NCBI RefSeq assembly: GCF_014863545.1
Contig: NZ_CP062260.1
Span: 4,473,001 to 4,537,000 of the forward strand
DNA from: Paenibacillus sp. JNUCC32
GTDB taxonomy: Bacteria; Bacillota; Bacilli; Paenibacillales; Paenibacillaceae
DNA length: 64,000 nucleotides
Reading direction: 5' to 3'
Under the pieces are notes generated by a model that saw nothing but the letters and a program-made list of their open reading frames with translations, searched no databases and was not told the DNA's origin. Of this stretch, positions 4,281 through 43,300 are shown one piece after another (position 1 is the first letter of the stretch; every line of letters starts with the position of its first letter). The translations under genes and the position numbers were made by a program.

Positions 4281-4300
4281 CCACTATCCCCTCTCTCCAT

Positions 4301-6303: not shown

Positions 6304-6443
6304 CGTATGATGGTTCTATTTTAGCACGTATCAAGAATCAGACTCCATTTTCAACCTAGCCCCTCATGATTCCACAACGACATCTCCTCAAACATAGCAG
6401 TCACCTGATTTGTTCCATGCTCCATCTATTCGCCTTTAAACTA

Positions 6444-6472
6444 TGGACATCTCTTTTTTAACGGACTATAAT
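6444..6472 (+). promoter_or_regulatory. Sigma-A-type promoter of guanine deaminase gene
   Basis: TGGACA (6444-6449), 17-nt spacer, TATAAT (6467-6472). The -10 overlaps the first in-frame ATG (6471), so the transcript should start near 6479 and translation must start at the later ATG (6513). No guanine riboswitch core is visible in the leader. Confidence 0.7.
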
Positions 6473-6512
6473 GACAAAAGCGCTCCAAAAAACGAACATT
6501 AAGGCGGTAAAC

Positions 6513-19716: not shown

Positions 19717-20880
19717 TTATTCTGATGGTTTAGCTGGTACTATATGAGCACCATCTTTTCCATAGTGTATCATCCCTCTATGAGTCTCTACATATTGTCC
19801 TGTAACAGGGTCATAGTATTTACCTATTGGTTTACCAAAGTCCACTCTCTCTTTATTTTTGGTGACAGTGGTTCCTTTCCCTGCAAACTTATCAAGCAAT
19901 TCTTGTGCGGTTTTATTATCGCCATAGAAAATGCTCTTATTTTGTCCATTTGCTATTTCTTGTTTGTAATTTGGAGTATTAGGAATATGTTTTTCTTGAG
20001 CACCTGGCTTTACTTTAACTGGGAATCCATTAACTTCTCTATAGGGTCCGATAGGTACTGAATTCTTCCCATAAGAAGGTCCACCATTTCCGCCACCAAG
20101 ATCATCATGCTTATTATTCAGTGGGCCTCTACCCCTAATTCCAGCACGGTTGAGAATAGCGCCTCCAAGGATCATAGCCGACTGTTGACCCAAGTAATTG
20201 GACCAGCCGCCTGCTGAATCGACTTCTTTCATTGTGTCTGCCACGATTTTTTCACGATATTCGTTACTAAAAACCATTCGGCCGGCCCATATCCCCGTGT
20301 CCCAAATATCCTCGACCGTCCCGATGGTTGCATTATAGAGCATCTCTTTCCCGGTTCCAAGCGGATCTTCGTACAAGGATATCGCCGTATCCTTTAACGA
20401 GTTCCCTAACTGGGCGGCCCCGATCTTTACGCCCTCCCATAGTTCCCCTGCTTCTTGCTTCACGGTGTCCCATGCCTTCCCGGCTTCCTGCTGCACCGAA
20501 TTCCAGGCTTCCTCCGCTTTTCTCCCGGCATCCTCTACGGCACTATGGCCTGCGGGTCCCCTCATCATAGGGAATGTTCCCAGCACATGCCCAGCAACTT
20601 GAATCGGTTGTCCCCGCTCATCTGCTGACTTAAATCGTTGGGCAATCCCTCTCAGCTCAAGGCTTGTCCGCTGGATATGCTCCGTGGTCAGTGTCATCTC
20701 TCGATGCGCCTGCTGAAAATCCACATAAAAACGGGATCTCGTCGTACCTTCCCAGGCAGACTCCAGCATATGGATGTTCTGGTTCAGCATGTCTATCATC
20801 GCTTCCAGCTGTTCATGCGCCCTGGAGCATTGATGTGCAACGTGCAGCAACATCTCCGGTGTGACCAAAATTCTACTCAT
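19717..20880 (-). CDS. LXG/WXG-type polymorphic toxin with Ntox50-type C-terminal domain
   Basis: About 387 residues from ATG 20880 (GGAGAGG upstream; the frame from 20928 is longer but has no ribosome site). Residues 1-90 form a WXG100-like hairpin with SAWEGTTRSRF. The middle has a helical spacer (EEAWNSVQQEAGKAWDTVKQ) and the same linker as the first toxin (EDPLGTGKEMLYNATIGT). The last ~85 residues match the Ntox50 plan: KPGAQEKHIPNTPNYKQE, SIFYGDNKTAQELLDKF, then ETHRGMIHYGKDGAHIVPAKP. Ntox50 is a predicted RNase-type toxin tip. Expected export: type VII secretion. Immunity candidate follows 15 nt downstream. Confidence 0.88.
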   Translation of the reverse strand: MSRILVTPEMLLHVAHQCSRAHEQLEAMIDMLNQNIHMLESAWEGTTRSRFYVDFQQAHREMTLTTEHIQRTSLELRGIAQRFKSADERGQPIQVAGHVLGTFPMMRGPAGHSAVEDAGRKAEEAWNSVQQEAGKAWDTVKQEAGELWEGVKIGAAQLGNSLKDTAISLYEDPLGTGKEMLYNATIGTVEDIWDTGIWAGRMVFSNEYREKIVADTMKEVDSAGGWSNYLGQQSAMILGGAILNRAGIRGRGPLNNKHDDLGGGNGGPSYGKNSVPIGPYREVNGFPVKVKPGAQEKHIPNTPNYKQEIANGQNKSIFYGDNKTAQELLDKFAGKGTTVTKNKERVDFGKPIGKYYDPVTGQYVETHRGMIHYGKDGAHIVPAKPSE

Positions 20881-21201
20881 AACAACCTCTCCATCTTGCT
20901 TTCGGGATTGAACCCGATCTCCGATCATAGTTAACTTAAATATTTTACTCTACTTGAATTATATGGAAAAGGTTCTCGAGGCCTTGCTATGTCACTTAAA
21001 ACTAGGATCTTTTTCTCAGTAGATACAGGACTTTATTACGAGCGGAATTCCCAATAACATGACCATTATTAGAGGAGTTCTAGGATGAAGGGAGTCACGG
21101 AACATGACATACTGTAAAAAAAGGGTGGGAATAGATGGATTAATTTATCCTTTATTATTCTCGCCCTGCTTGCTTGCACTGAATATCTGTTTAGAAAAGA
21201 A

Positions 21202-23713: not shown

Positions 23714-24025
23714 CTATTCTTCATCTATTTGAAAATGGTGAGTGAGACGTTCAATAGTAAACTGGTTTCTCAATTTACATGCTGAGTTCTGATTTGCGAA
23801 CATCCCTTTTTCCCAGATAGCTTCATGCTTCAGAAGCGTCTTAATCCAATCCACGCGCACCACGTACTCGCAGAGATCAGGATCATCGACATCCTTAACC
23901 ATGTTGACATGCAAGCCCGCTTCGAGAAGCGGTATATTCTTCCCATCAACCACCACCTGAAAATCCTTAATAGGCACCACTTCATCTGCGACAATATCCA
24001 CGCCGACATCACCTACATTTATCAT
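23714..24025 (-). CDS. Hypothetical protein with a restriction-associated C-terminal module
   Basis: 103 residues, acidic N-terminus, no TM segment. The second half (EYVVRVDWIKTLLKHEAIWEKG followed by MFANQNSACKLRNQFTIERL) resembles a short module with a G-x-F-x-N-Q-N motif that I associate from memory with larger restriction-type proteins. Here it stands alone, so it may be a small stand-alone protein or the remains of one. It lies 94 nt downstream of the helicase gene 24120-25529 on the same strand and marks the left end of the defence island. Function unknown. Confidence 0.6.
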   Translation of the reverse strand: MINVGDVGVDIVADEVVPIKDFQVVVDGKNIPLLEAGLHVNMVKDVDDPDLCEYVVRVDWIKTLLKHEAIWEKGMFANQNSACKLRNQFTIERLTHHFQIDEE

Positions 24026-24119: not shown

Positions 24120-25529
24120 TTAAATTATTATTTTCTCATAATAAGCTTCACCAAGTTCATCTATTAAAAAGTGACGATCCCCGTAAGTAAATAGGTTCAA
24201 AACTTGCATGGCTCGCGACATAGCGACATATAATAAGCGACGTTCAATATCCCAATCGAAGTCTTCTCCCAATCTCTCTTCTGTTCGTGGATCGACTAAA
24301 TCCGTTATGAGTACATATTTAAATTCTAATCCTTTGGCGGTATGAAATGAAGTGAGCTTGATACCAGGATCATGGTGAGTACCAATTAAATCTGGATCAT
24401 CGTTCTTGGATGGAGATTTGATGAATTGATATTTCTTTTTTGCCCCCTCTAGTAAATTCACTACACGCTTCATGTGTTTTTTATTGCGCGATAATATACC
24501 AATAGTAGCTTGAGGATCTTCTTTTTGAATGAGCTCAATCGCTTCCAAAAGCGCTCTCTTTTGCCCTTCGATTCCTTTTGTATAAAACACCTTTGGCTTA
24601 GGGCCTGTTTTTGTTGGTAGGTCTGGACGGGTAAATTCTTCATCTTTTGAAATTTCGTCCTTTTCCTGGATGCTGTAAGCAAGTTCCATAATTTCTCTTG
24701 TCGAGCGATATGAATTACGTAGTACTTTTGTACGGCCACCTTTAATATTTAATCCAACGCTCTCCCATGTAAAAGAAGTTGTAAATATTTTTTGTCCTTT
24801 ATCTGCACCGACTACACAGGACTTTCGTGGGATATGACAAAGCACCTGTAGATTGACCTTTGTCAAATCTTGTGCCTCATCAATAAATACATGGTCAAAC
24901 TTTGACTCGTCCTGGATTTTCTCCAATTGTCGTGACATCCGAAGACCAATATCATGATAATCTATACGATAACCCAGTTGTTTTTGGTAGGCCTCATATA
25001 TATTATATATAACTTTACGATCTACTGCAGAAAGGCGAACCTTCCCACCTCGGCCTTTGCGAGGTGCTTTATCGTACTTAGTAAATTCACATAGATCCGA
25101 GCCTTTAATCCAGCCTATTTCCTCTTCTATAAAGGTAATTAAATCTTTGTTATTCACAAAACGATGATTAACATATTCCCGCTTTACCTCTTCAATTGCA
25201 TCCAGCAGCTTTTGACGTGTATGATTCTCTAGATACATCTTTTTTTTAAACGTTTTAAAATAGTTTTTCATTGCCCAAGAATGAAAGGTAGTAACTGTCA
25301 CATTCGGTAAATTGTATGTCTCCAGCTGCCTATTAGCGGAGGCAGTTAATGCACTTCCATATGAAAAGATGGCTACGGTTTCGTCGGGATGCTTCGCTGC
25401 AACATCACGTGCTTTTTCAAGCAGTATTAATGTTTTTCCGCTACCAGCAATACCACGAATCAATAGCTGATCACCTGAGTATTTTATTATTTCCTTCTGC
25501 TGTGCAGAATACTTAATATCCTTCTTCAC
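24120..25529 (-). CDS. UvrD/Rep-like superfamily 1 helicase (fourth gene of NERD-helicase unit)
   Basis: About 469 residues from GTG 25529, with GGGGAGG 8 nt upstream; the longer frame begins inside the previous gene. SF1 motifs: Walker A GIAGSGKT (about residue 26), motif II FIDEAQD, motif III/IV region VLRNSYRSTREIMELAYSI, motif V TSFHTAKGLEFKYVLITDL and motif VI RLLYVAMSRAMQVLNLF. Short for UvrD, lacking the 1B/2B insertions, like the helicase partners in defence loci. The start lies 1 nt after the stop of the 64-residue gene, so expression is tightly coupled with the upstream three genes. Likely DNA translocase. Confidence 0.9.
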   Translation of the reverse strand: MKKDIKYSAQQKEIIKYSGDQLLIRGIAGSGKTLILLEKARDVAAKHPDETVAIFSYGSALTASANRQLETYNLPNVTVTTFHSWAMKNYFKTFKKKMYLENHTRQKLLDAIEEVKREYVNHRFVNNKDLITFIEEEIGWIKGSDLCEFTKYDKAPRKGRGGKVRLSAVDRKVIYNIYEAYQKQLGYRIDYHDIGLRMSRQLEKIQDESKFDHVFIDEAQDLTKVNLQVLCHIPRKSCVVGADKGQKIFTTSFTWESVGLNIKGGRTKVLRNSYRSTREIMELAYSIQEKDEISKDEEFTRPDLPTKTGPKPKVFYTKGIEGQKRALLEAIELIQKEDPQATIGILSRNKKHMKRVVNLLEGAKKKYQFIKSPSKNDDPDLIGTHHDPGIKLTSFHTAKGLEFKYVLITDLVDPRTEERLGEDFDWDIERRLLYVAMSRAMQVLNLFTYGDRHFLIDELGEAYYEKIII

Positions 25530-25530
25530 C

Positions 25531-25725
25531 CTAAAGACCTCCCCAAAAATCGTCATCATTTGATAGTTCTAAAGGTGGCTCAATCATTGAGTATGCCCCC
25601 TTACTGCTGGCAATATCTTTCCGTATAACTTTACGGAGAAGCTCTATGTTAATTACAGCCTCAACTGCCTCCGTCTGTACAGACTGCCAGCTTGTACTTA
25701 CCTGCTTCCAAAAAGATAAATTCAT
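25531..25725 (-). CDS. Small protein of the NERD-helicase unit
   Basis: 64 residues. Helical N-terminus (WKQVSTSWQSVQTEAVEAVINIELLRKVI) and acidic tail (ELSNDDDFWGGL). It begins 2 nt after the AddB-like gene and ends 1 nt before the helicase start, with AAGGAG in the end of the upstream gene as ribosome site. No known family. The acidic aromatic C-terminus could be a docking tail for one of the large subunits. Its strict sandwiching argues that it is real. Confidence 0.7.
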   Translation of the reverse strand: MNLSFWKQVSTSWQSVQTEAVEAVINIELLRKVIRKDIASSKGAYSMIEPPLELSNDDDFWGGL

Positions 25726-25727
25726 TA

Positions 25728-28337
25728 CTATTTATTCTCCTTACGCAAGTCTATTGGAAACACTGCGTCGCTGCAGTAGTCGGTATGAGGGCAGAAGCGG
25801 CATGCATAACCAGGATTTGCAGTTAGTACCTGATTTTCTGCAGCCTCAATTTCGCTGACTATACTTTCAATGGAAGCCTTCGTCTCATTAAATAATTCAT
25901 CTCTATCTTCATTTCTAAATCCAGGGAATTGAAAATTTTTACGAGTTTCAGTATATGAATAAGATTCGGATACTGCTGTCTGTTTCCCCGCCCGACCTGA
26001 CCTATACTGAAAAACTTTTTTTACTGAGAATTGCTTTCTAAAATCAAGCCACTGTGGAAATAATGGACTTACTTCCTGTACAACAGTCTCAAAATCAGCA
26101 TTTGCCCCTCTTCTTACAACACGGACAATTTCTGAAAACATAAATTGGTGTATGAAATCACTTGAAAACGTTGGATATTCATCTGTAATGTAGCTGTAAT
26201 AAAAACGTTTTGGGCACGACTTATACTCAGCGAGAAAATCCTCGAACCCCAATGTTCCCCAAGCGTCCGCTATCTCATCCTGATGGATTGATTCTTGAGA
26301 AAAATCATAAAGCGGTAATGGATCTTCAGTATCTGCTGATGCCTCCACAAAACTGACCGCTTGTAAACCAAGTTGTTTTATATACAAAGCTGGCTGTAGT
26401 TCATCTTGATCCAATATATTTTTAATCCAAGATAATTTTAACTGCTGTGGGGATAGATTCAGCGCAATGAAAAATAAATAACGTGAAATGGACTTATTTG
26501 CACGACTGCGAATGGTGTGCAGCTCAAGAGCAGTATGCTGTTCACTTAACAGCTCAAAAGTTTCAAGTTGCAGCGGCCAAGGAGTGCTTTGTCCACCAAG
26601 AGGTAATGAATTCTCATCAAGTCCTGTCAGGTAGATGGCATGATCTTGAGGTTTAAACATTTCTCCGTCAATTTCTATAAATCCACTAATATAGTTTTCA
26701 TCCATATCATCAAGCTTACCACTCAAATAAAAATGCAGCGCTTTTTGGATATCATCATATAAAAACTCCGAATCATCCTGAATGCGATTAAGCTTCTGCC
26801 CAAGCTCTTGGATTAATAACTTTTCGTTTTCATCTGCAATAAGGGAAACCCCTTGGCCATGTGTTTTTAAAATGTCTTTTAAACGTTTGAAATGAACATC
26901 AATGGTATTTTTAGATTTAGACTGGTCAAATAATGTCTTAGTCATCGTCTGAATACTTTCAATAAACATCTTTACCTGCTTCACACGATCAAGCGGCACG
27001 GCAAAATGACTAATTTTCGCAAAAGGACTACGCATACTGCGGAGAACGCGATTTTCGTCCCCTATCGGGAATGCCTTTTCAATGATCATGCCCTGTTCAA
27101 TGAGCTGTTCTAACCGAGAAATCCAGCTGCTTATCTCTATGCAGCCTTGCAAATAAGGGAACAGCTGCTGCAGATCATATGTGTAATCTTGGGCATTAAT
27201 ACTTAAAGATTGGCCGGATAACCAGCCTGATGAAAACAGATCCGTCAAAATCTCTTCTGTTAAATTCAGCTGCCCATAACTATAAATTTGGTGCAGGCTC
27301 ACTAAAAAACGACCAATTGGATAGGATAAAAAATTTCGCTTTTTGGGATTTAACTCAGGGTAATAAGATAGGAGCAGTTCATTGAGCTGCTTTGCATTCG
27401 GCGAAATAATATTAGGAACAGCTGACTTATTATTATGATCACTATCAATTGGGAAGTTCGGTAGAATTACATCATGTAAAAAGTCAAAAAAAGAAGCGTA
27501 ACCCGTGATAGTCTCTTTCAATCGCTCCTTCTTATTCGGTTTGCTTTCATACGCTGACAGAAACGTCTGTGCACTTTTCGTTGTATCATCCGGAGCTGCA
27601 GAATCGTATATCCACTCTTCAGGAGACGGCCAGCCGAAACGATCTGTTACAAACGCCTTAATAAAATTAAAAGTATTTGCGTAGCGGCCATCAAAGTAAT
27701 GGAAAAAGGTAATCCGTATCTGCTGCTTACGCAAATTTTCTAATATGATCTGCTGTTCCGGTGTGACAAAGTAAAAACCGTGCAGCACAATCTGGATATC
27801 GTCTTTGATTTGGATATCAGGGTTTTTACATAACTTGCTGATGGTCTTTTGTATAGAAGTTATTAATATAGGCCGGTCTAATGTTTGATAATGCTCTTGA
27901 CTTACAGCATCATCTTTTATGAAGCTGTCCCAAACCTTCTTAAACAAACGCTCTTTTTCTGTTTTTAGCCAATGGTCCTTTAATGCTAAAGGCTTGATAT
28001 TCACTTCCACGAAAAAACGAATACTATCCAAAATCTCCATTGCATTTAAACGAAACGCCTGTTTTAATTCCGGCGATACACCCGTTAAATTGGAGATAAT
28101 TGCCGATAAGCGTAAAAACTGCTGAAACTTTGTTTCAGCACTATACCACTTAGGATACAAACTTTTTATAAATTCACGAAAGGAATATATATGCTTTAAA
28201 TCGTGACCGTAGCATGCTTTAATCCCTTTCCTTTGATTATTTGTAGCACAAATATGAATGGCATCTGGAAATGATGCATAGTGCGGATGCTGTGCCCATT
28301 TCTTAGGCTGTGAGTAGGTATGCACTTTTACGTTCAT
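25728..28337 (-). CDS. AddB-like protein with Fe-S cysteines, nuclease motif not visible
   Basis: About 869 residues from ATG 28337; GGAGG lies 7 nt upstream and the ATG overlaps the previous stop (ATGA). The overall plan is that of the AddB/RexB subunits: an inactive SF1-like N-terminal half, then a C-terminal PD-(D/E)XK-type region beginning FEDFLAEYKSCPKRFYYSYI (about residue 720). The last cysteines CRFCPHTDYC give C-x2-C-x5-C which, with the earlier SCPKRF cysteine, match the Fe-S staple of AddB and Cas4. I cannot find the GxxDRxD...DYKT catalytic signature between them; the region instead reads FQYRSGRAGKQ. So it is probably a structural DNA-binding subunit. Confidence 0.8.
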   Translation of the reverse strand: MNVKVHTYSQPKKWAQHPHYASFPDAIHICATNNQRKGIKACYGHDLKHIYSFREFIKSLYPKWYSAETKFQQFLRLSAIISNLTGVSPELKQAFRLNAMEILDSIRFFVEVNIKPLALKDHWLKTEKERLFKKVWDSFIKDDAVSQEHYQTLDRPILITSIQKTISKLCKNPDIQIKDDIQIVLHGFYFVTPEQQIILENLRKQQIRITFFHYFDGRYANTFNFIKAFVTDRFGWPSPEEWIYDSAAPDDTTKSAQTFLSAYESKPNKKERLKETITGYASFFDFLHDVILPNFPIDSDHNNKSAVPNIISPNAKQLNELLLSYYPELNPKKRNFLSYPIGRFLVSLHQIYSYGQLNLTEEILTDLFSSGWLSGQSLSINAQDYTYDLQQLFPYLQGCIEISSWISRLEQLIEQGMIIEKAFPIGDENRVLRSMRSPFAKISHFAVPLDRVKQVKMFIESIQTMTKTLFDQSKSKNTIDVHFKRLKDILKTHGQGVSLIADENEKLLIQELGQKLNRIQDDSEFLYDDIQKALHFYLSGKLDDMDENYISGFIEIDGEMFKPQDHAIYLTGLDENSLPLGGQSTPWPLQLETFELLSEQHTALELHTIRSRANKSISRYLFFIALNLSPQQLKLSWIKNILDQDELQPALYIKQLGLQAVSFVEASADTEDPLPLYDFSQESIHQDEIADAWGTLGFEDFLAEYKSCPKRFYYSYITDEYPTFSSDFIHQFMFSEIVRVVRRGANADFETVVQEVSPLFPQWLDFRKQFSVKKVFQYRSGRAGKQTAVSESYSYTETRKNFQFPGFRNEDRDELFNETKASIESIVSEIEAAENQVLTANPGYACRFCPHTDYCSDAVFPIDLRKENK

Positions 28338-31300
28338 TGGAACGCCTCCAATCCACCGCTTTTTAAGATATAAGCCCAACTTTCATTGGAGAACTTTTTA
28401 CGACTTGGCATCGTAATGTACACTCGCTGCATTGCTCTTGTGAGTGCAACATAAAGTAATCGCGTCTCTTCCTTAAGTTGTTCTTTGTCTTCGTACTCTT
28501 TTAAATCCTCGAAATGACTATTGATATGTGGTTTATCAGGTTGCTTTTTATCCCAGGTAATCTTCCAGCCAAATCTACGGTTTGCTCTTTTTTGCGTTTG
28601 CTCAGAAGCCTCCTCCAAGAAGTACTTCTGCTCAACCACATTAAACGGTGTATCGGTAATGGGCAAAAATACCGTATGATATTCAAGTCCCTTTGAACGG
28701 TGGACTGTTGTTATTTCTACCTGGGCTTTGTCCTGCTCCAGCAACGGTTCATTTTCAGTGCGGTTCGTTTTAATTTGAAGCCCCAGCCAATCACGCAAGA
28801 TCTGAAGTGTCACATGTTGGGATGAAAAATTCCTCTCTATTAATACCATCAGATGCTGCAAATTTTTTATATACCGCAGTACAGCAAGCTCAATCTCTTC
28901 CTTTGAAGGGGCAGTTTCTTTGTTTATATGAAGAGATTGCTGTTCTAAATACAGAGGTAAACGCGCAAACAGCTTTTTATCATAAATTATTTTTTGAATG
29001 ACCGTCATTGGCGATAGCGTACGTAATAGCCGCACATACTGTTTCAACTCGTTCTTGGTACGTTCATGAATAAATGACGTAATACGCTCCTTATGGCCAC
29101 CAAAAGGTATAAGCACGTGTTGCGGCACAACATATCCAAAATAGGGTGTTTGTAGAGCGTTTAATAAAAACTTCGGCTCATGCGAATACAATAGTCCATC
29201 AATCAAAGTCTTTAAATGGAGTACAGACGGACTAGTAAAGAACGTACCATCTAAATTTTCAGATGTCGGAATGTTTTTGGATACACAGTATTCTTTAATT
29301 TTCTTGGCTTGACGATTTGTTCGGACGATAAATGCGATCTTATCCTTTTTATCCGGCAGCGTGGCTAAGGCTTTTTCAAAATCGTTCTTATAATCTATTG
29401 ACACATGCCAATCATTATTCGGAAACTGCGCCGGTTTATTACTTTGTAAACGATCAGTTTTTTCGTAGGTGAGCCAACCTTCCTTATGCCAGCGTTCAAA
29501 CAATTGATGCATTTTATCTAAAAGAGAAGCCGAGCTTCGGTAGTTAAGCTGTAATTCGGTCTTTTCGTATGCAGCACCCGCAGTTGCATTCTGCAGTTCC
29601 TGGAATGACTTGTAATCGGCGCCGCGAAACCGATAGATGGCCTGCTTCACATCCCCTACTACAAACAATCGGTACTGCAGATAGGTTTGTAAACTGGCTA
29701 ATAGTTCAATTTGCACAGAATCACTATCCTGAAACTCATCAACAAATATAAAATGATCCTTAGAAAGCTGCTTCATTCTATCTCCGCTGTTTGTAAGCAG
29801 CTTAAGCTTTCGGATTAAATCACCCATTGTGATTTTGTTGTCCGCTCGCTTTAATCCATCTAAACGAGTCTCACAATTATTGAAAATAAATATAAGCACT
29901 TCTTGGATAAGTGTGGACTCTTCGTTTGACGCATCGCCCCAATTAATCTTCTTTATTTCGTCGGCCGTCAAACCCTTCTTCTCCATCTCTTCCCACATAT
30001 CGTATACAAGATCAATAAACTCATAATCCATAACTTTTATTTTTAAAAAATCTTCAATAGGTCGCGTGGAAAAAAACTCATCCATCAATTCGTTGATAAT
30101 TCTTTTCTTCTCATATTTATAGCTTCCGAGTTGAACGTTTTGGCCATAGCCAATCTCATGAGCGAGTTGCTTTAAAATGGAGCGAGCAAATGAGTGAATA
30201 GTACTGATTTGCATATCCTTTACATCCTCAGCAAACTGCAAGAAACGCATTTGCCCGGTCAGGTTGTATAGAGTAATAAATTTATTCTCTAAACGCTTTT
30301 TCATTTCATTTGTTGAGGCATTGGTAAAAGTAATCATCGTAACAAGCTTTAATGGAATACCACCATTAATCAATAAAAATAAAATACGGTCAATCATTAC
30401 ATGTGTTTTTCCTGTGCCTGCTCCGGCTGTAATGATTTGGTTTGCATCAATGGGCTGATGAATTGCTTTGTACTGTCCACCATTGAAGCTGGGGAAATGT
30501 TTTGCCAGCTGTTCGAGAAGGTCCTTTGTAACATGTTCACCGTCAACAAAACGGTTTGAAAGGATCGGACTCTTAGTTGAACTCTCCGATTCATATACAT
30601 TTAACTGAAACTCTTTTTTATGTATTTTATAGTCAGTTATATCAGACAACTCTAATTTAGTGTAGGTTAATAAATATACTTTTGTGCCGTTACTTAAGGC
30701 ATTTGAAATATCATTCTTGTAACGTTCAAAATCCTGACTCGTCTGCACAATATATAGATTAGAGAAAGGCAAACGTGACCCCAGCACAACTTGTTGTACC
30801 TTCGTTGTTTGAATACCTAGTTCTTCCGAGATCATCATCAGTTCAGGCATTGTTAGTTTCCCTTTAGCCTCTGACAAGGCAAAGTTTTGGAGCTTCCGCA
30901 CTAAATGGTTCAAATCTGTCAAATCCTCTTTAAATAGAGGAAGAGGTGTATTGATTTGCCTATGGAATCCCCGTTCCTGCCACTGATTTTCGGATATATA
31001 AGGAAGGGCAACAAATATACGCTTACTTAAACGGCGATAGAGAAGTGGATTCTTCTCTAAATGATTACATAACATTAGCATCTGATTCTCTGCTTGTTTA
31101 TAGGGGTTGCCTTGTGCCTCATAAAAGTTGGTATACGACCAATGATGCCCTTGAATCGACGTAATCTGGTCAATCTTGAGTCCTTTAACTTCTATAACAC
31201 AAACGCCTAAGAGCTCGTTGATAATTAAGATATCAATCTCTTGCCGCCCAGTTCCGTTTGAAAAGAACATTGGAAACTGATGAATAGCCAAGGTCGTTTG

Positions 31301-31387
31301 CTGATCAAAAGCATAAGTAATTGCATTCCACACAGAGAGCTCTGCATCTAAACCAGGTGTATCCTTGAGAGTAGTCGGAATAAACAT
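28334..31387 (-). CDS. NERD-nuclease/UvrD helicase fusion, AddA-like
   Basis: About 1017 residues from ATG 31387, chosen for AAGAGG 6-7 nt upstream (the frame from 31411 adds 8 residues). Residues 1-130 are a NERD nuclease domain with PD-(D/E)XK spacing: Glu16, Asp52 (RQEIDILII), Glu66 and Lys68 (IEVKG). Then a complete UvrD helicase: Walker A ITAGAGTGKTHVM, TFTNASTNEMKKRL, FVDEFQDSD, VGDVKQAIYRFRGAD, ITTVHRSKGLEYHTVFLP and TRLLYVALTRAMQRVYI. First gene of a four-gene overlapping unit. The complex is expected to unwind and cut DNA, perhaps foreign linear ends. Confidence 0.9.
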   Translation of the reverse strand: MFIPTTLKDTPGLDAELSVWNAITYAFDQQTTLAIHQFPMFFSNGTGRQEIDILIINELLGVCVIEVKGLKIDQITSIQGHHWSYTNFYEAQGNPYKQAENQMLMLCNHLEKNPLLYRRLSKRIFVALPYISENQWQERGFHRQINTPLPLFKEDLTDLNHLVRKLQNFALSEAKGKLTMPELMMISEELGIQTTKVQQVVLGSRLPFSNLYIVQTSQDFERYKNDISNALSNGTKVYLLTYTKLELSDITDYKIHKKEFQLNVYESESSTKSPILSNRFVDGEHVTKDLLEQLAKHFPSFNGGQYKAIHQPIDANQIITAGAGTGKTHVMIDRILFLLINGGIPLKLVTMITFTNASTNEMKKRLENKFITLYNLTGQMRFLQFAEDVKDMQISTIHSFARSILKQLAHEIGYGQNVQLGSYKYEKKRIINELMDEFFSTRPIEDFLKIKVMDYEFIDLVYDMWEEMEKKGLTADEIKKINWGDASNEESTLIQEVLIFIFNNCETRLDGLKRADNKITMGDLIRKLKLLTNSGDRMKQLSKDHFIFVDEFQDSDSVQIELLASLQTYLQYRLFVVGDVKQAIYRFRGADYKSFQELQNATAGAAYEKTELQLNYRSSASLLDKMHQLFERWHKEGWLTYEKTDRLQSNKPAQFPNNDWHVSIDYKNDFEKALATLPDKKDKIAFIVRTNRQAKKIKEYCVSKNIPTSENLDGTFFTSPSVLHLKTLIDGLLYSHEPKFLLNALQTPYFGYVVPQHVLIPFGGHKERITSFIHERTKNELKQYVRLLRTLSPMTVIQKIIYDKKLFARLPLYLEQQSLHINKETAPSKEEIELAVLRYIKNLQHLMVLIERNFSSQHVTLQILRDWLGLQIKTNRTENEPLLEQDKAQVEITTVHRSKGLEYHTVFLPITDTPFNVVEQKYFLEEASEQTQKRANRRFGWKITWDKKQPDKPHINSHFEDLKEYEDKEQLKEETRLLYVALTRAMQRVYITMPSRKKFSNESWAYILKSGGLEAFQ

Positions 31388-31718
31388 TGAAATTCCTCTT
31401 TCATTTTTCATTTAGGGGTTACATACTAGTACAATAGTCCCTCAATAAAACACTTGTTATCAGTATTATTATACCTATACTTTTACATAATTCTACAGAT
31501 TAGAATTGTATTCTTCTTAAAGATATCATGTGCTTGAGATCAGATAAGAACGAGTATATTACATAGAGTTGAGATGGCACTTACATTGGACGGGACAGTG
31601 GATCATCCATATTTGTATACAAATCACACATGACTATAGTACTATATTTATATCGTCATTATTCGGTTTATTTTTAGATTAGATCATTTTTAGCATCACT
31701 TTGTGGAAGGTGGATATT
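31388..31718. other. Divergent promoter region
   Basis: About 330 AT-rich bases between the divergent NERD-helicase operon (-) and HNH gene (+). Promoters in both directions are expected here; I cannot assign a clear -35/-10 pair with confidence. Confidence 0.4.
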
Positions 31719-32630
31719 TTGGAAGCAACTCATGAAGGAATTTTAAAAAAATTTGATGCTCTAAAGGGCAAATTAATTATTGGCAAAGCAGGTATTAAAG
31801 GTATTAATTCTAAAAAACGGCTTCCAGCAGATGAATATGTTCCTGAAGCTCATATTATCCATAATTTGGTGAGGGGGTTTTATAAACCTGCTGACAAGCC
31901 GTATATATTATCCTATCAGGCCACAGAATCCAGCGAAAACTACGGTAAGCAAATAGTTTGGAGCGATGAAACCCAATCTGAATTTTTACGTATTGAAATG
32001 GCTCCTCCGGATAAAGAAAACGATCATAGCAAAAAAAGCGATATAGTAGCTGCACGCTATAACCTTGAAAAGAAAATTCCTCTCGGCATACTACATAAAA
32101 TAAAAAAAGGACATAATCGCATACTTGGCCTTGGCATTATCACATCAGAACGTGACGACGGAGTCTTTATAGTTGAACCCTTTTCTTATAAAGGTATACT
32201 CCATCCACTTGATGAATTGAAAAGATTGATAAAAGATGAGGAAATTAATACAAGTTTTGTGGCTGAAGTAGTTCAAAGGCGAGGTCAGGCGATCTTTAAA
32301 AAGAAGTTATTTGAGGATTCCGCAGAATGTGCTATCTGCAGAATGGATGAACCAACATTGTTAATTGCTAGCCATATTAAACCTTGGAAGTATAGCTCTA
32401 ATTTTGAAAGACTTGATAAATATAATGGGTTATTGTTATGTCCTAATCATGATAAACTATTTGATCAAGGCCTTATAACCTTTACTGATGATGGGAATGT
32501 CGTCATTTCAAGTCTTCTGACAACAAAAACAAAAGAAACGTTTGGACTAACTGAAAGTTTGTTTATTTATTTAGATGAAGGTCATAAAAAATACTTGTCG
32601 TGGCATAGAGAAAATTGCTTTAAAAATTAA
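31719..32630 (+). CDS. HNH endonuclease
   Basis: About 303 residues from TTG 31719 with AAGGTGG 5 nt upstream; a longer frame begins at 31701. The N-terminal ~180 residues form a separate domain that could recognise DNA (VAARYNLEKKIPLG, RILGLGIIT). The C-terminal ~110 residues carry a classic HNH site: CAICRMDEPTLLIASHIKPW, NGLLLCPNHDKLFDQGLITF. CxxC plus the second cysteine pair suggest a partial zinc ribbon. It is the only plus-strand gene of the island, convergent with the glycosylase. A restriction role is inferred; a modification-dependent cut is possible beside two 5mC methyltransferases. Confidence 0.88.
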   Translation: MEATHEGILKKFDALKGKLIIGKAGIKGINSKKRLPADEYVPEAHIIHNLVRGFYKPADKPYILSYQATESSENYGKQIVWSDETQSEFLRIEMAPPDKENDHSKKSDIVAARYNLEKKIPLGILHKIKKGHNRILGLGIITSERDDGVFIVEPFSYKGILHPLDELKRLIKDEEINTSFVAEVVQRRGQAIFKKKLFEDSAECAICRMDEPTLLIASHIKPWKYSSNFERLDKYNGLLLCPNHDKLFDQGLITFTDDGNVVISSLLTTKTKETFGLTESLFIYLDEGHKKYLSWHRENCFKN

Positions 32631-33493: not shown

Positions 33494-35335
33494 TCAGATA
33501 ATATTACTCAGGTGCTTCGTATATTCGTCTTTGAACTGGACCCAGCACGCTTCCTGTTTAGCCCATTGTGTTACATTTCGATCCCCCGCAGAATCACGAA
33601 GGAAGAATAATGCTTTATCCGCAATAATCCGTATTACTTCGTCCCACTTATCAGATAGTGCTTGCCTATCCCATACTTCTAAAAGCTCAATCTTGTTTCC
33701 GTATATATGATGAAGCATAGCCACAGTATAATAAATTACATTTGCTCTATACCCTTGAAGTCGCATGGATTCCACAATATTAGTAACATGAAAATTAATA
33801 ATCGTCCTTGCTATTAGTTTCTGATATACTTTGAGAGTAACTTCACTTAATGGAATGATTTCATCATTTTCATCCTTATCGTACTTCCAATACTGCTTAT
33901 TTTGCTCCATAAACCGCTTAAAGGCTTCTTCTCCACCTTTGCTTGAAACATGGGGAAATCCTTCACATGACATATAATGTTTAGCTAAATCAACTTTTGT
34001 AATCACCTTATCACTTGGGTACTGCTTTTTAAATTCATTCTGTTCTTTACCACGCTTGCGTCTATTTAAATCAACTGCATATTGACCTCTCGCACGTTCA
34101 AAGTACCACTTGCTCTCTGCTCTACGTCCATCAGTAGCTGGTATCCATGTGTCCCTAGAAAACTTCTCTAAGTCAGACATAAACCTGGAGTTGGCAAGTA
34201 AATCAGAGTTGTTTATTTTATTCTGCGTATTAGCATACTTTGAGATATTAGATACCATCTCATCTTCTAGAAGCTGCTGGTCTTTTTCTTGATCTGCTTC
34301 AATATGAAGGATTGTTAATTTGGCCTGAACATACACATCCGTTAAATCCACTTCATTCTTATAAGCCTGATGAATGGATGCAGTGGTCTGACCACCATTA
34401 ACAATTTGCCAACCTGTCAACCCGTTAATTCGGAAAAGATTAATATCTTCACTTATTTTCTCGATGTCCCCCGCACGAGCTACACTTGAGATACCATTAT
34501 TGTAACTCACAAACATTCTTCTCTCATTCGGATCTTTTAGTGTTTTTAAGATCCCTTTATTGGTGCCGCCTTTAGATTGCAGAAAGGATCTAACATTCCG
34601 CTCAACGAGTTTAGAACCCCATCGATCATAAGCTTTCGCGAGTAACTCAGCAGGTATAAAGCCGACATAACACGAAAAGTAATTATGGGTTCTCTCATGT
34701 TTAGTATTTGGAATATACATCATTTCAAATGTCTGTCCTAATTCACTTTCAAAGTCAATATGAATTGTTTGAATTCCTTGCTCGGACAATATCATTTGAA
34801 GAATGCGATCAATATCCCAAACCTGAACAATTACTGTTTCGATTCCAGGAATCGATATCTCAATAGGTTTATTGGTACTATAAAACATGTTAGTTAATAC
34901 AAATATATTCACCTCATCAATAACACTAAAGTTTTCTGTTATAAGTACAGCCAGTTCTCGGGCTTGAAGGGAATGATCGATTGTTTGAGCTAATGTTTTA
35001 GCATTCGTAACAAATCGTTTAGCCTGGTTGGCCAAATCGGTCAGCATTGTCATATTTATTGAAAGTAAATCGTGCTCATTTTGGTCAAAGCTATAATTTG
35101 CAACGTACAAATCAAGAACACGCTGGCTCTCATCAAACGAATACGCGTTGATCGCAATTTTTTTATTTGTATCTATATATGGAGGAATTAAAATATCAGG
35201 TTCGACATCTCGTTCCATAAACAACAGCATCTTTTCTAAAAAAGGGACCAGATAAACGCCTGTTTTTGCTGCCCTCTCTTCTATCTCTTCAAGAAATTCC
35301 TTCAGGAATTCACTTCTTTGTTTATTCTCTAGCAT
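33494..35335 (-). CDS. AIPR-family protein
   Basis: 613 residues. AIPR (abortive infection phage resistance) domain with the typical central block FVSYNNGISSVARAG...INGLTGWQIVNGGQTTASIHQAYK, then DVYVQAKLTIL and ISKYANTQNKINNSDL. No TM segment. AIPR proteins occur in phage-abortive and restriction loci, often next to Z1 and PD-(D/E)XK genes as here. Last gene of the GHKL-Z1-PD-(D/E)XK-AIPR operon, starting 15 nt after the previous gene and ending at a strong terminator. Biochemical activity of the family is not clear from sequence. Confidence 0.88.
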   Translation of the reverse strand: MLENKQRSEFLKEFLEEIEERAAKTGVYLVPFLEKMLLFMERDVEPDILIPPYIDTNKKIAINAYSFDESQRVLDLYVANYSFDQNEHDLLSINMTMLTDLANQAKRFVTNAKTLAQTIDHSLQARELAVLITENFSVIDEVNIFVLTNMFYSTNKPIEISIPGIETVIVQVWDIDRILQMILSEQGIQTIHIDFESELGQTFEMMYIPNTKHERTHNYFSCYVGFIPAELLAKAYDRWGSKLVERNVRSFLQSKGGTNKGILKTLKDPNERRMFVSYNNGISSVARAGDIEKISEDINLFRINGLTGWQIVNGGQTTASIHQAYKNEVDLTDVYVQAKLTILHIEADQEKDQQLLEDEMVSNISKYANTQNKINNSDLLANSRFMSDLEKFSRDTWIPATDGRRAESKWYFERARGQYAVDLNRRKRGKEQNEFKKQYPSDKVITKVDLAKHYMSCEGFPHVSSKGGEEAFKRFMEQNKQYWKYDKDENDEIIPLSEVTLKVYQKLIARTIINFHVTNIVESMRLQGYRANVIYYTVAMLHHIYGNKIELLEVWDRQALSDKWDEVIRIIADKALFFLRDSAGDRNVTQWAKQEACWVQFKDEYTKHLSNII

Positions 35336-35350
35336 TTAGCAAATCCCCCA

Positions 35351-36361
35351 TCACAAATCAAATACCTCATCTACTTCTCTTTCAAAATCAGTACAATGTG
35401 TAAGGTCTATACAGTAACTAACATGGGATATTCCCTTGGGGAGATCTTCCTGTAATATTCTTGGGAAATTCGCCGCGGCTTCATATGCCTCTACTTTATC
35501 TACAAAAAAGAAATCATCCGTATAATCATCTTCTTTAAACCTTAAATCCTCAAGAAGGTCGTTAAACTTTAATAACATACGGTCAGAGCGGCTTTCAATT
35601 TTTTTTCGAACTTTGTTAACAAGCGAGTATAATGAAATACCATGAGTTTTGCTTAGTTCTATAAAGCAAACATAAAGATATATACTAGTAACTGCATTGG
35701 TCAGCCTTAACTGATTTTCGTTTGAAATTTTAATTGTCTTATTTAACTTATTTATTGCCGTCTTAATCTCTACACCGCGTTTAGAATGCTTAAAGTCAAT
35801 TCGACCACTAGTTGGACCTTCCCATTGTTCAATTATAAGTGGCGGAGAAGTTGGAAACCGGTTAAGCCAGTCATCAATATACCACAATTCGCCAAAAAGC
35901 CCCCGTTGCTGTTCTTCGGTTAGTTTGCGGTATCCACCTTTTTGAAAAAATACGCGCCATCTGTCCAACACTTTGTATATTACCGAAAATATCGATTCAT
36001 TCTGTTCCCTTAACAGCAAATGATCCACGACATTCTGCAGTACAACTTCAAATATCTCTGTACCACATTCTGCCTCTTGCCTCAAAACAAGAAAGTAATG
36101 CCCCCTCAATAAAGCCAACTTTTCATAATACTCAATTTGGATAGATAAACCTCGCCATTTTGGCAGTGCCTTAACCTGATCAGTCTCCCAAGATTCGAAA
36201 CCCAAATCAATATACAGCTGCCTAGTCATACTTGCAGTATCTACGCCTGCAAAAATTATAGGATTTTCAGCCGTTAGGACCCTCAATTTGTATACTTCTT
36301 GCTGAGATTGGTCTTTTATTTCATTAATCATCTGCTCATATTCTAATTTAAGATTCAGCAT
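35351..36361 (-). CDS. PD-(D/E)XK motif protein (DUF4420-type)
   Basis: 336 residues. Central block EQWEGPTSGRIDFKHSKRGVEIKTA contains the D...E-x-K signature of PD-(D/E)XK nucleases, followed by I-S-N-E-NQLRL, the pattern of the DUF4420 family. No TM or signal. It lies 31 nt after the Z1 gene and 15 nt before the AIPR gene on the same strand. It is likely the DNA-cutting component of the module, with the Z1 and GHKL ATPases moving or sensing DNA. Confidence 0.88.
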   Translation of the reverse strand: MLNLKLEYEQMINEIKDQSQQEVYKLRVLTAENPIIFAGVDTASMTRQLYIDLGFESWETDQVKALPKWRGLSIQIEYYEKLALLRGHYFLVLRQEAECGTEIFEVVLQNVVDHLLLREQNESIFSVIYKVLDRWRVFFQKGGYRKLTEEQQRGLFGELWYIDDWLNRFPTSPPLIIEQWEGPTSGRIDFKHSKRGVEIKTAINKLNKTIKISNENQLRLTNAVTSIYLYVCFIELSKTHGISLYSLVNKVRKKIESRSDRMLLKFNDLLEDLRFKEDDYTDDFFFVDKVEAYEAAANFPRILQEDLPKGISHVSYCIDLTHCTDFEREVDEVFDL

Positions 36362-36392
36362 TCAGCACATCTTCCCTACTATATGAGAATAT

Positions 36393-39038
36393 TTACTTAA
36401 TAGTTTTGTTTACTTCATAAATCTTAGAATCATCTAAATCTGAGTCAGGAAAGGAAATTCCAATTCCAATCGGTACCATGCTCTCACTAAAGGAAAATCC
36501 TAGGTCATCAAATACATTTACTTTAGGGTGAAGCGGGTAAATAAGAAGCATTCCATTTTCTTTTGGTCTCAGTTTTCTAATCTCTTGCTTGTCTTTCATA
36601 TTCTTTATTTCAACTTGATTGAGATCAATAAATTCCTGCCGCGAAGCAACTATAGCCCGGATATCAATTTTAGCCTGTCCTTGATTGGTATACTCTTCCG
36701 CCTTAACACCACGAACTACAGCTGAACCAATCTCTAATGTTCCAAGACGTACTGGAAACTTTTCAAGACCACTTTTATCACTTGGATCTCCTTCAACTAC
36801 TGCTACAGTCCAATACAAGAGCTCTCCAATATCACTAACTTGCTGAATATAATTTACAATCTTGATACTATCGACTTTATCTGCACCCTGACTAGTTTTA
36901 TATTCAGATAAGAATGTTAATACTTTATCGACACCAACTTTCTGAGCTATGTAGTAGCCCGTTTTCCCTGAGCCTATACGTATCTTTTTGAAATCGGAGG
37001 ATAATTTATTAATTAAATTCTCTGTCACTTTCATATTGTGAGAAAAAAAAGATTCCTTGTTCTCATATATACGAGTTTGCTGCAGGGTCAGCCTATAAAT
37101 GACATTTGTTATAGAAGCATTTCTCATTTTTAACGGACTTGTTAAGGTCATGGTTGGATGACTTAGCATTTTTACTGCGTATTCCAATGGTGTCTTTTTT
37201 TCTTTTGCTAGCCTGTCAAATTCTCTTCGCAGTTCAATCATAGCAATGGCAAGATGTTCAAAATTTGAAGCAATCTCTGCGGTAGTGTAAATTCTGCACA
37301 AGTCCATATATCCTTTTCGATAACCAAACCAGCGTCCCATTTGCATTAAGGTATCGTACATTAACGTATTCCTAAAATAGTAGGTTATGCTGAGTCCCTC
37401 AAGCGTAAGTCCACGTGATAACTTATCTCCACCAACTGCGATTACATTTAAACCGTCCTCTTTATATTGGTGATAGTATAATGCATCTTTACTGTTACCA
37501 TTAATTTCAAAAACGCGGACTTTGTTAGAACTTTCCTTAAGCTCCTGATAAACCTCTTCCCAGCTGAATTCTTGGATGTCACCAGGCCATGCTCTGCTTG
37601 TTGGAATTATATCTTCCTCATAAAGCTCTTTAAGTACGTTTACAATCGTACTATTTTCGTTATATCGAATTTGCGTAATAATTTCGTTGAATACTTTATC
37701 AACGCCGTCTTTTACACTTGACTGAACATCTTTAAAACGTGAGGTATGAATAAGCATTGAATTATGTTTGTTCCTCTGGCCTCGCAGATTTCGTACAGCG
37801 ATTGTTAAAAGAAATGCCAATATCGATTCCTCCATCTGGGGAGGAACCTCTTCAAATTTATCAGCATCACCTTTTGTTTTAATTCCAGTAAAGACTTCTA
37901 TATCCTCATCCCTTAAAGGACGAATTAAACTTGGACGTGGATCGTCAGCTTCTTCTTCAATATTAAAGAATTCCTCTGGACCACAGTATTCCTTAGGCTT
38001 GGGCAGCCCAACAAGAAAATCCTTTGGATAAAGATCCTTACCTTCATCTTCCGTTTTGGCCTCAGCACTAATTAATAAATTTGCAAAGGGCGTTGCTGTA
38101 TAACCCACATAACATCTCCTGTCAAAAATCTCCAAGATCTGCCGTATTAACTTATTAATCGTTTTTGGATCTTCATCTTTGGAAGTATCAACAGATGCTT
38201 GATCGGCTTCATCATCAATGATTAAAACTGGAATATCTAAACTAAATAACTTCTTTTGGTATTCGAGCTGATTTTTTAGTGACTCCAGAACAATACTATT
38301 CTTTTTAACAACCATAAGAGTCCTTTGATTCAAATTAAAAATGCCGCTTGGTTCAGAAGAGATGTCACGTTCTACAGTAGTCCAAGAAGAAATAATATGA
38401 TTCGGTGTATTTGCATAGATTTGGGCAACTCCGACAGGTTTTCCAGTCTTATCGATTCTGCTGCCAATTACTTCTTCATCTAATCTGAGCTGTGTCTGAG
38501 CTCGAAGATCATTGTGTACCCCTGATAGTACAATCACCAACTTATACCCAATATCGTATGCTTTATTGATTAACCCTGTAAAGTTGGCAGTTTTCCCTGA
38601 TTGCACATATCCCAAAACAAGCCCGCGCTTGTCAAAAGGATAAATATCCTCAGGGTTACCCAAGGATCTCATAATTTCATTTGTTGAATCATCTATGGAG
38701 TCAACGGCTTCTGGATCCCAATTCTTGACTCTGATTAAATAATCTCTGTAGCGGGTCCAAAAAAAAGCTCGCAAGAGTAATTTAGGGCTGTACCATTCCT
38801 CCTCTTCTTCTGAACGTAATACAGTTGTTTTTATGATGTCAAAACCAACATTAAACTTCATATACATTTCTAACGACCACTGCTCAACCAATCTTTCTCC
38901 TATGTTTTGACCTTGGATAACCAGCTTCGCAAATTCTAGTGCCTGCTCAGCTGCTTTCTCATGGCTGGGCAAAGCAGATTTCAAATTCATATAATTAGTC
39001 GCAAAGGTGTGTTCAAATAACTTCTTCGCTTCATTCAT
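36393..39038 (-). CDS. Z1-domain superfamily 2 helicase-like ATPase
   Basis: 881 residues. Walker A-like GYVQSGKTANFTG (about residue 145), then LVIVLSGVHNDLRAQTQ, motif II VLIIDDEADQAS, motif III VGYTATPFANLL, and the Z1 block IAVGGDKLSRGLTLEGLSIT...DTLMQMGRWFGYRKGYMDLCRIYT with the arginine finger region. Z1 proteins are known from operons with MORC/MutL-like ATPases, cytosine methyltransferases and nucleases (predicted restriction systems described by Iyer, Abhiman and Aravind). Overlaps the GHKL gene by 8 nt. Likely motor of the system. Confidence 0.92.
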   Translation of the reverse strand: MNEAKKLFEHTFATNYMNLKSALPSHEKAAEQALEFAKLVIQGQNIGERLVEQWSLEMYMKFNVGFDIIKTTVLRSEEEEEWYSPKLLLRAFFWTRYRDYLIRVKNWDPEAVDSIDDSTNEIMRSLGNPEDIYPFDKRGLVLGYVQSGKTANFTGLINKAYDIGYKLVIVLSGVHNDLRAQTQLRLDEEVIGSRIDKTGKPVGVAQIYANTPNHIISSWTTVERDISSEPSGIFNLNQRTLMVVKKNSIVLESLKNQLEYQKKLFSLDIPVLIIDDEADQASVDTSKDEDPKTINKLIRQILEIFDRRCYVGYTATPFANLLISAEAKTEDEGKDLYPKDFLVGLPKPKEYCGPEEFFNIEEEADDPRPSLIRPLRDEDIEVFTGIKTKGDADKFEEVPPQMEESILAFLLTIAVRNLRGQRNKHNSMLIHTSRFKDVQSSVKDGVDKVFNEIITQIRYNENSTIVNVLKELYEEDIIPTSRAWPGDIQEFSWEEVYQELKESSNKVRVFEINGNSKDALYYHQYKEDGLNVIAVGGDKLSRGLTLEGLSITYYFRNTLMYDTLMQMGRWFGYRKGYMDLCRIYTTAEIASNFEHLAIAMIELRREFDRLAKEKKTPLEYAVKMLSHPTMTLTSPLKMRNASITNVIYRLTLQQTRIYENKESFFSHNMKVTENLINKLSSDFKKIRIGSGKTGYYIAQKVGVDKVLTFLSEYKTSQGADKVDSIKIVNYIQQVSDIGELLYWTVAVVEGDPSDKSGLEKFPVRLGTLEIGSAVVRGVKAEEYTNQGQAKIDIRAIVASRQEFIDLNQVEIKNMKDKQEIRKLRPKENGMLLIYPLHPKVNVFDDLGFSFSESMVPIGIGISFPDSDLDDSKIYEVNKTIK

Positions 39039-40506
39039 GCCTAATATTCGCCTCTTCTATGATTGATTTCAACGTTTTTCGATTTAAACCATCAAAAGCA
39101 GGTTGAGTAATAAGTGCATCTATCAACTGCTGCATATCTTCTACAACTTGAAGCTTAATTAAGGTAGATGCAAACTGGATCACTAACTCTTTCGTTGCGT
39201 CGGTAACTTTTTGAATTGATTCTTCCTCTACTTTGGGTGAATCGGTTATATTACTGGGTGACCCTAACTGAACAAACTTTAAATACATGTTAAGTAGCTT
39301 CGAAGTTTCATCATCAATTCTTTTCTGAATTTCTGATAAAATAGGGTGATTTCTATTTAATACAAATTGCTGTCCTTCATCGCTACCTGATAACTCCCAA
39401 GTATTGAGACTCCCTTTGAAGGTTTGACTAGGATGGAATCTTTGAGTCCGATAATAAAAGACATCGCGCGAAATTTTACGAACAAATTCAGCAATTGTTT
39501 CAAGCCTTGTTTTTGCATTGTCTGGAGGAATAACTGCAGACTTTTTAATATCTACTTGCCAACCTTCATCTGCAGTATTTGGAATATCGATTCGGACTCT
39601 TGCCAGTTGGGATGAAGTATCCTTTTGAAACATACCCAACCAATCTCCATAATGCAGCAATCTATTCTCACGGTATATATAAAAGCCTTGATGATCTCTC
39701 CATCCTCTGCTACCACCTGCCCTTTTGTATTCCATTTCATTTAAGAATGAAGCATGCGGAAGAACATAGTATTTTACTTTAATTTTGTTTCCATTTATAT
39801 TTAGAATCTGCGTTTCACCTTCCAGAGTGGAAGGGTGCTTAACCAGAAAAGGATCCCAAGGATCTAACTCGTTTCCATTTAGGAAAACCTGAACCTTACC
39901 GTGTTCAATAATTGAATGAAAGACAAACTCTAAGTGTTGATGTATACGTCGAACTTTGGCGAAAAAGCTGCTTTCATGTATCGTGTTTATGGTTCCCGCT
40001 CCCATAAACCGATCTAGCTTATCTATACATATAACTGTACCGCCATCTCCTTCAATATCGCACATAAACTGTCTAACTTCATCTGGAATTGTCGTAAACA
40101 GCTGCCATTCATTGCATTGAGAGACATGATCTAGATCCCAACAGCGTTGCGAGTAAATTCCATTTTGTTTGGTAAGAACACTCAAGCGCTTACCTAGAGA
40201 AAAAGAGGCTGTCTTCAGCCCCATACCAAATCTTCCGAGTTCATTTGGCTGTCTATCTACACGCGGGTCTTTGGAACCAATATTCATTGCTGCTTGAAGC
40301 CTATCTTCGTTCATTCCAAGACCATTATCCGCAATAATTATTGCACCATCATTTCCAAAAAACTTGAATTGGAGAATTATTTTAGTCGCTTTAGCATCAA
40401 GGCTATTATCAATCAAATCTGCTATTGCAGTCCCTGCATTATATCCTAATGAACGGAGTGCTTGGATTACAGGTGCAGCAGAAGGTTGTGTCAGGATTAT
40501 ATTCAT
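39031..40506 (-). CDS. MORC/MutL-like GHKL ATPase
   Basis: 491 residues. GHKL ATP-binding motifs in order: N-box AIADLIDNSLDAKA (about residue 30), DNGLGM (about 60), and GRFGMGLKTASFSLG (about 92). The following S5-like region contains VRIDIPNTADEGWQVDIKKS. C-terminal helical part about residues 400-490. ATP-driven dimer clamp on DNA is expected from the family. First gene of the GHKL-Z1-PD-(D/E)XK-AIPR operon; the methyltransferase gene upstream has its own terminator between, so the operon has its own promoter in 40507-40660. Confidence 0.9.
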   Translation of the reverse strand: MNIILTQPSAAPVIQALRSLGYNAGTAIADLIDNSLDAKATKIILQFKFFGNDGAIIIADNGLGMNEDRLQAAMNIGSKDPRVDRQPNELGRFGMGLKTASFSLGKRLSVLTKQNGIYSQRCWDLDHVSQCNEWQLFTTIPDEVRQFMCDIEGDGGTVICIDKLDRFMGAGTINTIHESSFFAKVRRIHQHLEFVFHSIIEHGKVQVFLNGNELDPWDPFLVKHPSTLEGETQILNINGNKIKVKYYVLPHASFLNEMEYKRAGGSRGWRDHQGFYIYRENRLLHYGDWLGMFQKDTSSQLARVRIDIPNTADEGWQVDIKKSAVIPPDNAKTRLETIAEFVRKISRDVFYYRTQRFHPSQTFKGSLNTWELSGSDEGQQFVLNRNHPILSEIQKRIDDETSKLLNMYLKFVQLGSPSNITDSPKVEEESIQKVTDATKELVIQFASTLIKLQVVEDMQQLIDALITQPAFDGLNRKTLKSIIEEANIRHE

Positions 40507-43289: not shown

Positions 43290-43300
43290 AATAAAGCACC

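Follow-up and report, generated by a model that had tools for sequence, protein, structure and literature searches.

In a 64,000-nucleotide (nt) stretch of the Paenibacillus sp. JNUCC32 chromosome (NZ_CP062260.1; hereafter the window), four adjacent genes, G1 to G4, encode what we read, with a probability of about 0.6, as an apparently mobile defence helicase-nuclease patterned on AddAB/RecBCD. The genes are transcribed in the order G1, G2, G3, G4 on the minus strand, spanning 31387-24120:

28334-31387, minus strand: G1, 1017 amino acids (aa), NERD nuclease fused to an AddA/UvrD-type superfamily 1 (SF1) helicase
25728-28337, minus strand: G2, 869 aa, AddB/RecC-like subunit with no Walker A and without a nuclease core
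25531-25725, minus strand: G3, 64 aa, with an N-terminal FWKQVSTSW motif and an acidic SNDDDFWGGL tail
24120-25529, minus strand: G4, about 470 aa, short UvrD/HelD-like SF1 helicase with the Walker A GIAGSGKT

An initial annotation of the window had described four genes joined by a 4-nt ATGA overlap and gaps of 1-2 nt, and both the coordinates and the joints were confirmed. G1 starts at the ATG at 31387, with GAGG upstream (an alternative in-frame ATG lies at 31411), and its 3' end reads CAATGA, the overlapping ATGA supplying the stop codon of G1 and the ATG of G2; the mechanical open reading frame (ORF) of G2 opens earlier, at TTG 28379. The G2/G3 gap is 2 nt and the G3/G4 gap 1 nt, G4 starting with a GTG at 25529 (an alternative ATG at 25559 would overlap G3). 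The closest relative, from Paenibacillus terrigena (locus L007), shows the identical G1-G2 overlap, and its G4 GTG directly abuts the G3 stop codon (0 nt) and is the earliest start codon in that frame, for which reason the GTG start is preferred. Proteins of the two loci are 90% (G1), 90% (G2), 88% (G3) and 91% (G4) identical, with ratios of nonsynonymous to synonymous substitution (dN/dS) of 0.15, 0.19, 0.15 and 0.11, respectively. Ratios this low suggest that all four are genuine genes subject to purifying selection; a chance ORF is unlikely even for the 64-residue G3, which is most probably a selected protein.

The features of G1 that matter here are the nuclease domain and the motor:

30803-31375, minus strand: N-terminal NERD domain (G1 residues 5-195, approximately), holding Glu16, Asp52, Glu66 and Lys68
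30404-30427, minus strand: G1 Walker A AGAGTGKT with Lys327, invariant in 44 aligned sequences

The alignment of G1 held 44 sequences, including the window's own, picked from the best 120 of 597 homologues; those 120 are almost entirely full-length proteins and include no shorter homologues that lack NERD. Within this set the four residues that had been called an intact NERD site proved exact in position and invariant (44/44), and Lys327 of Walker A and the DEFQD motif were likewise invariant. The NERD family (PF08378) is precomputed for many G1 homologues, one of them 89% identical; in a Pfam scan of the window's G1 (E 0.1), NERD was not called. That scan assigned UvrD-helicase and UvrD_C to residues 304-993 of 1017 and reported no nuclease family, hence no C-terminal RecB-type domain as AddA has. 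Among NCBIfam models recB and addA were the best, both far under cut-off; for the AddA equivalog, G1 scored 150.8 bits versus a cut-off of 707.65. When a profile of the 44 sequences was compared with the PDB, AddA (E 4e-48) led narrowly over PcrA (6.5e-46) and clearly over RecB (9e-36), and AddA was also the top Foldseek match of the AlphaFold2 model (E 1.4e-27; PcrA 1.8e-25).

In G2, the diagnostic features are cysteines:

26214-26216, minus strand: G2 Cys708 in the context SCPKRFYY, first cysteine of an AddB-type four-cysteine set
25773-25802, minus strand: G2 Cys846-x2-Cys849-x5-Cys855, with spacing as in host AddB

These four cysteines are nearly invariant in an alignment of 37 rows picked out of 66 protein matches, G2 itself counted. 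The four-cysteine signature of AddB has an iron-sulphur (Fe-S) role, and by analogy the G2 cysteines are predicted to form an Fe-S type staple. G2 is nearest to AddB by fold comparison only: a sequence search against the PDB and an hhalign comparison with one host AddB gave no match, and the NCBIfam AddB model matched none of the 37 members, so that the link to AddB rests on fold and cysteine spacing. VIA-align rows re-rank Foldseek's own list and were taken as support only. G2 has no Walker A, and the nuclease motifs of host AddB (GRIDRVD and DYK) are absent from it. The interval from Cys708 to Cys846 is 138 residues long in G2 versus 320 in host AddB, and holds no acidic or Lys column conserved at 90% or more in the 37 aligned. 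On sequence grounds, NERD is the sole recognisable nuclease site in G1-G2. The earlier proposal, an AddAB-like machine with its nuclease shifted onto the NERD subunit, is thus well supported: the AddAB likeness because G1 is nearest to AddA by profile and fold and G2 nearest to AddB by fold, and the move because both canonical nuclease sites are missing while the NERD site is invariant.

A search of GTDB contigs gave 26 related loci, all of which we take to be Bacillota from the organism names in their titles. G1 and G2 are adjacent in 26/26 (a contig end truncates one G1, and one G2 is split), and their pairwise identities are closely correlated (Spearman 0.87; 120 pairs from 16 operons); G4 identities correlate less (0.48 with G1, 0.66 with G2). 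A G4-like helicase lies downstream in 16/26 loci, a motif-bearing G3 in 13/26 and NERD on G1 in 7/26 (L007-L013), the complete NERD four-gene set being present in 6/26 (L007-L010, L012 and L013), with L011 possessing NERD and neither G3 nor G4. L007 and L012 each carry two tandem G1-G2 operons, the first of which is cut by the end of the fetched stretch. The four-gene unit of the initial annotation therefore holds for the window and fails as a conserved set: the conserved core is G1-G2.

The distribution is patchy. A scan of genomes of the same family gave matches in 11/394 (5 of them strong), the window's own genome being the only match within its genus, and a scan of genomes of the same class gave 20/398. 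G1-G2 relatives were seen on two plasmid records, and one phage record gave a partial match; among IMG/VR viral contigs 58 stretches fitted the search pattern, none of them a relative. The host genome has a separate AddA and AddB, both over their cut-offs (C1, 3.68 Mb), placing its ordinary AddAB about 0.8 Mb from G1-G4.

G1 relatives also differ at their N-termini. Pfam reported no nuclease in the five that were scanned (L011, L017, L028, L079 and L081); the G1 of L011 matches the NERD profile built here. The N-terminal regions of L011, L081, L080 and the L017 group were assessed by eye. By this inspection, L017-L020, L027, L028 and L032 share another conserved G1 N-terminus of about 300 residues, D...(G)QLFxG-like, which replaces NERD and is possibly another nuclease-like domain, and L011 (6340-10011) and L081 (11275-14730) bear extra G1 N-terminal regions that appear PD-(D/E)XK-like. 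A PLD-type gene is present in L015, and in L030 an AspBHI/Mrr-type gene lies downstream of the second helicase; as the latter resembles a stand-alone restriction enzyme, neither was counted as proof of nuclease swapping.

The small ORFs found between G2 and G4 in 13 loci share the motif [FIL][WF]xx[ILVA]xxxW and carry 5 to 12 acidic residues within their last 20. As the motif was composed by eye from the same proteins in which it was counted, its frequency is only descriptive. It also stands at the start of the longer G4b helicases of L015, L030, L075 and L081, and not at the start of G4b in L007 and L012 (first copies), L016, L022, L083 and L085-L088; among 414 neighbourhood proteins, 15 had it within the first 60 residues, 13 of these being G3 or G4b. 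Since the motif opens some of the longer G4b helicases, this fusion-type evidence lends partial support to the idea that G3 works with a helicase. The acidic, aromatic tail of G3 presumably resembles the C-terminal tip of single-stranded DNA-binding protein, a likeness we treat as a lead only. G4 itself classifies as a UvrD/HelD-like SF1 helicase, not as a member of the RecD family.

As to the earlier proposal that the unit was built for anti-phage work, the support is of one kind, gene context, and comes from its restriction-modification (R-M) and defence neighbours. A C5 methylase was present in the fetched stretch of 15/26 loci, a MutH/Sau3AI-like restriction endonuclease (REase) in 8, Vsr in 7 and PDC-M33A in 7, with an AlwI-type REase in L014, L030 and on a Geobacillus plasmid. 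Counting any seed R-M or candidate defence family or AlwI, 19/26 loci were positive; seven (L009, L023-L026, L029 and L031) held none of the seed families. Control regions from unit-bearing genomes held none of the tested families (0/16). The seeds were drawn partly from the loci in which they were counted (L007, L019, L008, L046 and the window, each seed's own locus included), so these counts favour association; the C5 methylase count is the least affected. Its frequency at the loci greatly exceeds the background, which a tally of about 55 genes over 59 genomes (about 337 Mb) of the window's family puts at roughly 0.16 genes per Mb; the 26 loci come from several families. Among 15 non-redundant extra regions, C5 methylase, REase or Vsr seeds occurred in 3, and L078 and L081 had an HNH or MutY seed; PADLOC applied to neighbours in 10 extra regions returned type I R-M, Mokosh, Dpd-type and PDC models, in pooled counts without a control for 71/105 proteins chosen by eye. 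Taken together, these data show a reproducible linkage of the unit to R-M and defence genes.

To place the unit among known systems, we compared it with its nearest counterparts. AddAB of B. subtilis has one SF1A motor, two nuclease domains (one per strand) and activity limited by Chi, as described in an excerpt of PMC4824097. Like AddAB, the unit sets an AddA-type SF1 motor gene beside an AddB-fold partner with four cysteines; however, the AddA and AddB nuclease sites are missing from G1/G2, NERD sits at the N-terminus of the motor, G2 lacks the Walker A of host AddB, G3 and G4 are extra, the distribution is patchy and the host retains its own AddAB. In terms of AddAB membership, the AddA-type helicase, the AddB fold and the four-cysteine signature are present, and the AddA C-terminal nuclease, the AddB catalytic motifs and scores over the NCBIfam equivalog cut-offs are missing. 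RecBCD consists of the RecB motor, the RecC partner without a Walker A, and a third motor subunit. The unit similarly has one RecB-like motor (G1), a partner without Walker A (G2) and a third motor gene (G4), but G4 is UvrD/HelD-like, not RecD-like, and an N-terminal NERD stands in place of the RecB-type C-terminal nuclease.

Searches of PADLOC-DB 2023 returned helicase-family matches for G1 and G4, including GajB, RTasHel, C3a187, Nhi and AbiO (the best 25 of 42 and the best 25 of 40, respectively), and none for G2 or G3, on which grounds identity with a known system was rejected. Gabija (GajAB) also places a UvrD-like helicase in a defence setting, its GajB models matching both G1 and G4; its OLD-family nuclease GajA had no match among 20 unit and neighbour proteins, with G1 and G4 judged among the matches listed (best 25). 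C3a187 (NERD plus UvrD) matches the helicase part of G4, but its best G4 stretch spans only 314-549 of 559 positions (two stretches). Defence proteins bearing NERD include Mokosh I and Nhi-like (excerpt of PMC10952713) and PglW of BREX (excerpt of PMC12839542); these resemble G1 in that NERD is fused to, or accompanied by, a motor or another effector, but none is described in those excerpts with an AddB-fold partner. An AddB-like PD-(D/E)XK nuclease/helicase linked to CRISPR-like repeat arrays (Altae-Tran 2023; excerpt of PMC10910872) shares with G2 an inactivated helicase domain; a repeat-array system of that kind was rejected, as no array turned up between 20 and 48 kb of the window. No description of the G1-G4 set was found in PADLOC-DB 2023 or by directed searches of the open-licence literature, subscription papers and newer tool releases being outside this scope, which agrees with the initial annotation that it is not a named system. 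The best reading of these comparisons is that G1-G4 would work like AddAB/RecBCD yet falls outside AddAB membership, as a variant for which no name was found.

Gene structure, conservation, predicted folds, nuclease motif loss, the separate chromosomal AddAB and the R-M/defence linkage were computed; from them we infer the assembly of a complex, its motor polarity, a DNA-end substrate, cutting by NERD, phage protection and the sparing of self DNA. In the proposed mechanism, G1 would be an active 3'-to-5' motor in the AddA/RecB role, with its nuclease relocated to the N-terminus as NERD. G2 would serve as scaffold, in the role of AddB/RecC, its inactive helicase fold stapled by cysteines of the Fe-S type; lacking both Walker A and a nuclease site, it should hold DNA ends and part the strands without cutting. 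G4 would supply an additional SF1 motor as the third subunit, RecD-like in role and not in family, and G3, with its helix motif and acidic tail, would be a small adaptor that probably docks G4 on G1-G2. The ATP-driven complex would load onto phage DNA that is broken or linear, with ends left by nearby restriction enzymes among its substrates, and unwind it, NERD cutting the extruded strand. Having a single, relocated nuclease and three subunits with a further motor among them, such a machine would need to operate differently from AddAB, perhaps more destructively.

Could the unit instead be an auxiliary repair or recombination complex, a second AddAB riding in genomic islands? Repair is the primary task of AddAB and RecBCD, G1 and G2 have AddAB-like folds, and seven of the 26 loci lack any R-M or defence seed family; yet the host already has both AddA and AddB over cut-offs, the distribution is patchy, R-M/defence neighbours are frequent as against 0/16 controls, and a relative (G187) has other genes at the site, nuclease- and helicase-like by eye, so that we consider this explanation unlikely. 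It is similarly improbable that the complex is the nuclease arm of an R-M system, in which the C5 methylase marks self and the complex attacks unmodified DNA without a separate REase. That idea draws on the C5 methylase in 15/26 loci and in the window, far over background, and on the gene order of L010, where a C5 methylase, PDC-M33 A-B-C, a second C5 methylase and MutY (1-6630) lead directly into G1-G2-G3-G4. However, the position and strand of the methylase vary, 11/26 loci have none, and several carry their own AlwI- or MutH-like REase, because of which the methylase may already have a partner.

A decoy, in which G1-G2 mimics host AddAB and a phage AddAB inhibitor triggers the NERD nuclease or the G4 helicase, would fit AddA and AddB folds without their nucleases and a small acidic G3 that could serve as a brake, and other systems do guard RecBCD. 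But all 44 aligned sequences keep Walker A and the other helicase motifs of G1 unchanged, suggesting a working motor and not passive bait, and we regard a decoy as very unlikely. Our preferred reading, a defence helicase-nuclease on the AddAB/RecBCD plan, can be extended to a whole family: a copied AddA-AddB core from which both nucleases were removed and into which others were plugged (NERD on G1 here, different N-terminal regions elsewhere), with an extra helicase and an acidic adaptor, finishing phage DNA opened by neighbouring restriction and sparing self DNA without Chi. We offer this extension tentatively and think it doubtful as a whole. For AddAB and RecBCD, the destruction of phage DNA is a by-product of repair; if our reading is true, the end-degrading motor has here been turned into an immune module in its own right, mobile, with a different nuclease and beside restriction systems. 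It also becomes testable by what means such a machine could leave the host chromosome intact when Chi control is absent, and what role the small acidic third gene plays.

Around the unit, the window holds an upstream series (HNH, MutY-like glycosylase, MZA-like genes, C5 methylase, PDC-M33 C-B-A and a second C5 methylase) and, beside G4, a gene remnant:

31701-32630, plus strand: HNH gene, divergent from G1; its counterpart in L007 (5778-6752) is also divergent
33494-40506, minus strand: MZA-like set matching MzaB, MzaC, MzaD and MzaE, between a C5 methylase and the MutY-like glycosylase
42552-46091, minus strand: PDC-M33 C-B-A, between the two C5 methylases
23714-24025, minus strand: PDC-S11 remnant, a neighbour outside the unit, matching the C-terminal 100 residues of PDC-S11

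The HNH gene has weak similarity to a phosphorothioate-DNA restriction family (36.6 bits versus a cut-off of 180). MzaA had no match among the 20 window proteins scanned, and PDC-M33 was named in none of the open-licence papers searched. The PDC-S11 remnant is a 103-aa tail that the unit abuts. At the equivalent site in G187, whose left-flank segments are 88.6 to 95% identical to those of the window, a 359-aa ORF (L113 6940-8019) shares the C-terminus of the remnant and stands next to one NERD-like gene and an SF1-type helicase gene (both by eye). Defence-like genes appear to turn over at this site.

In Lachnospiraceae loci (L031 14740-17860, L026 and L029) the unit is followed, in conserved order, by an unnamed family, TelA and a rhomboid-type gene, families scanned in L031 only. 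Elsewhere in the window, a gene of the WXG100-Ntox50 polymorphic-toxin type lies at 19717-20928 (minus strand), with small ORFs downstream.
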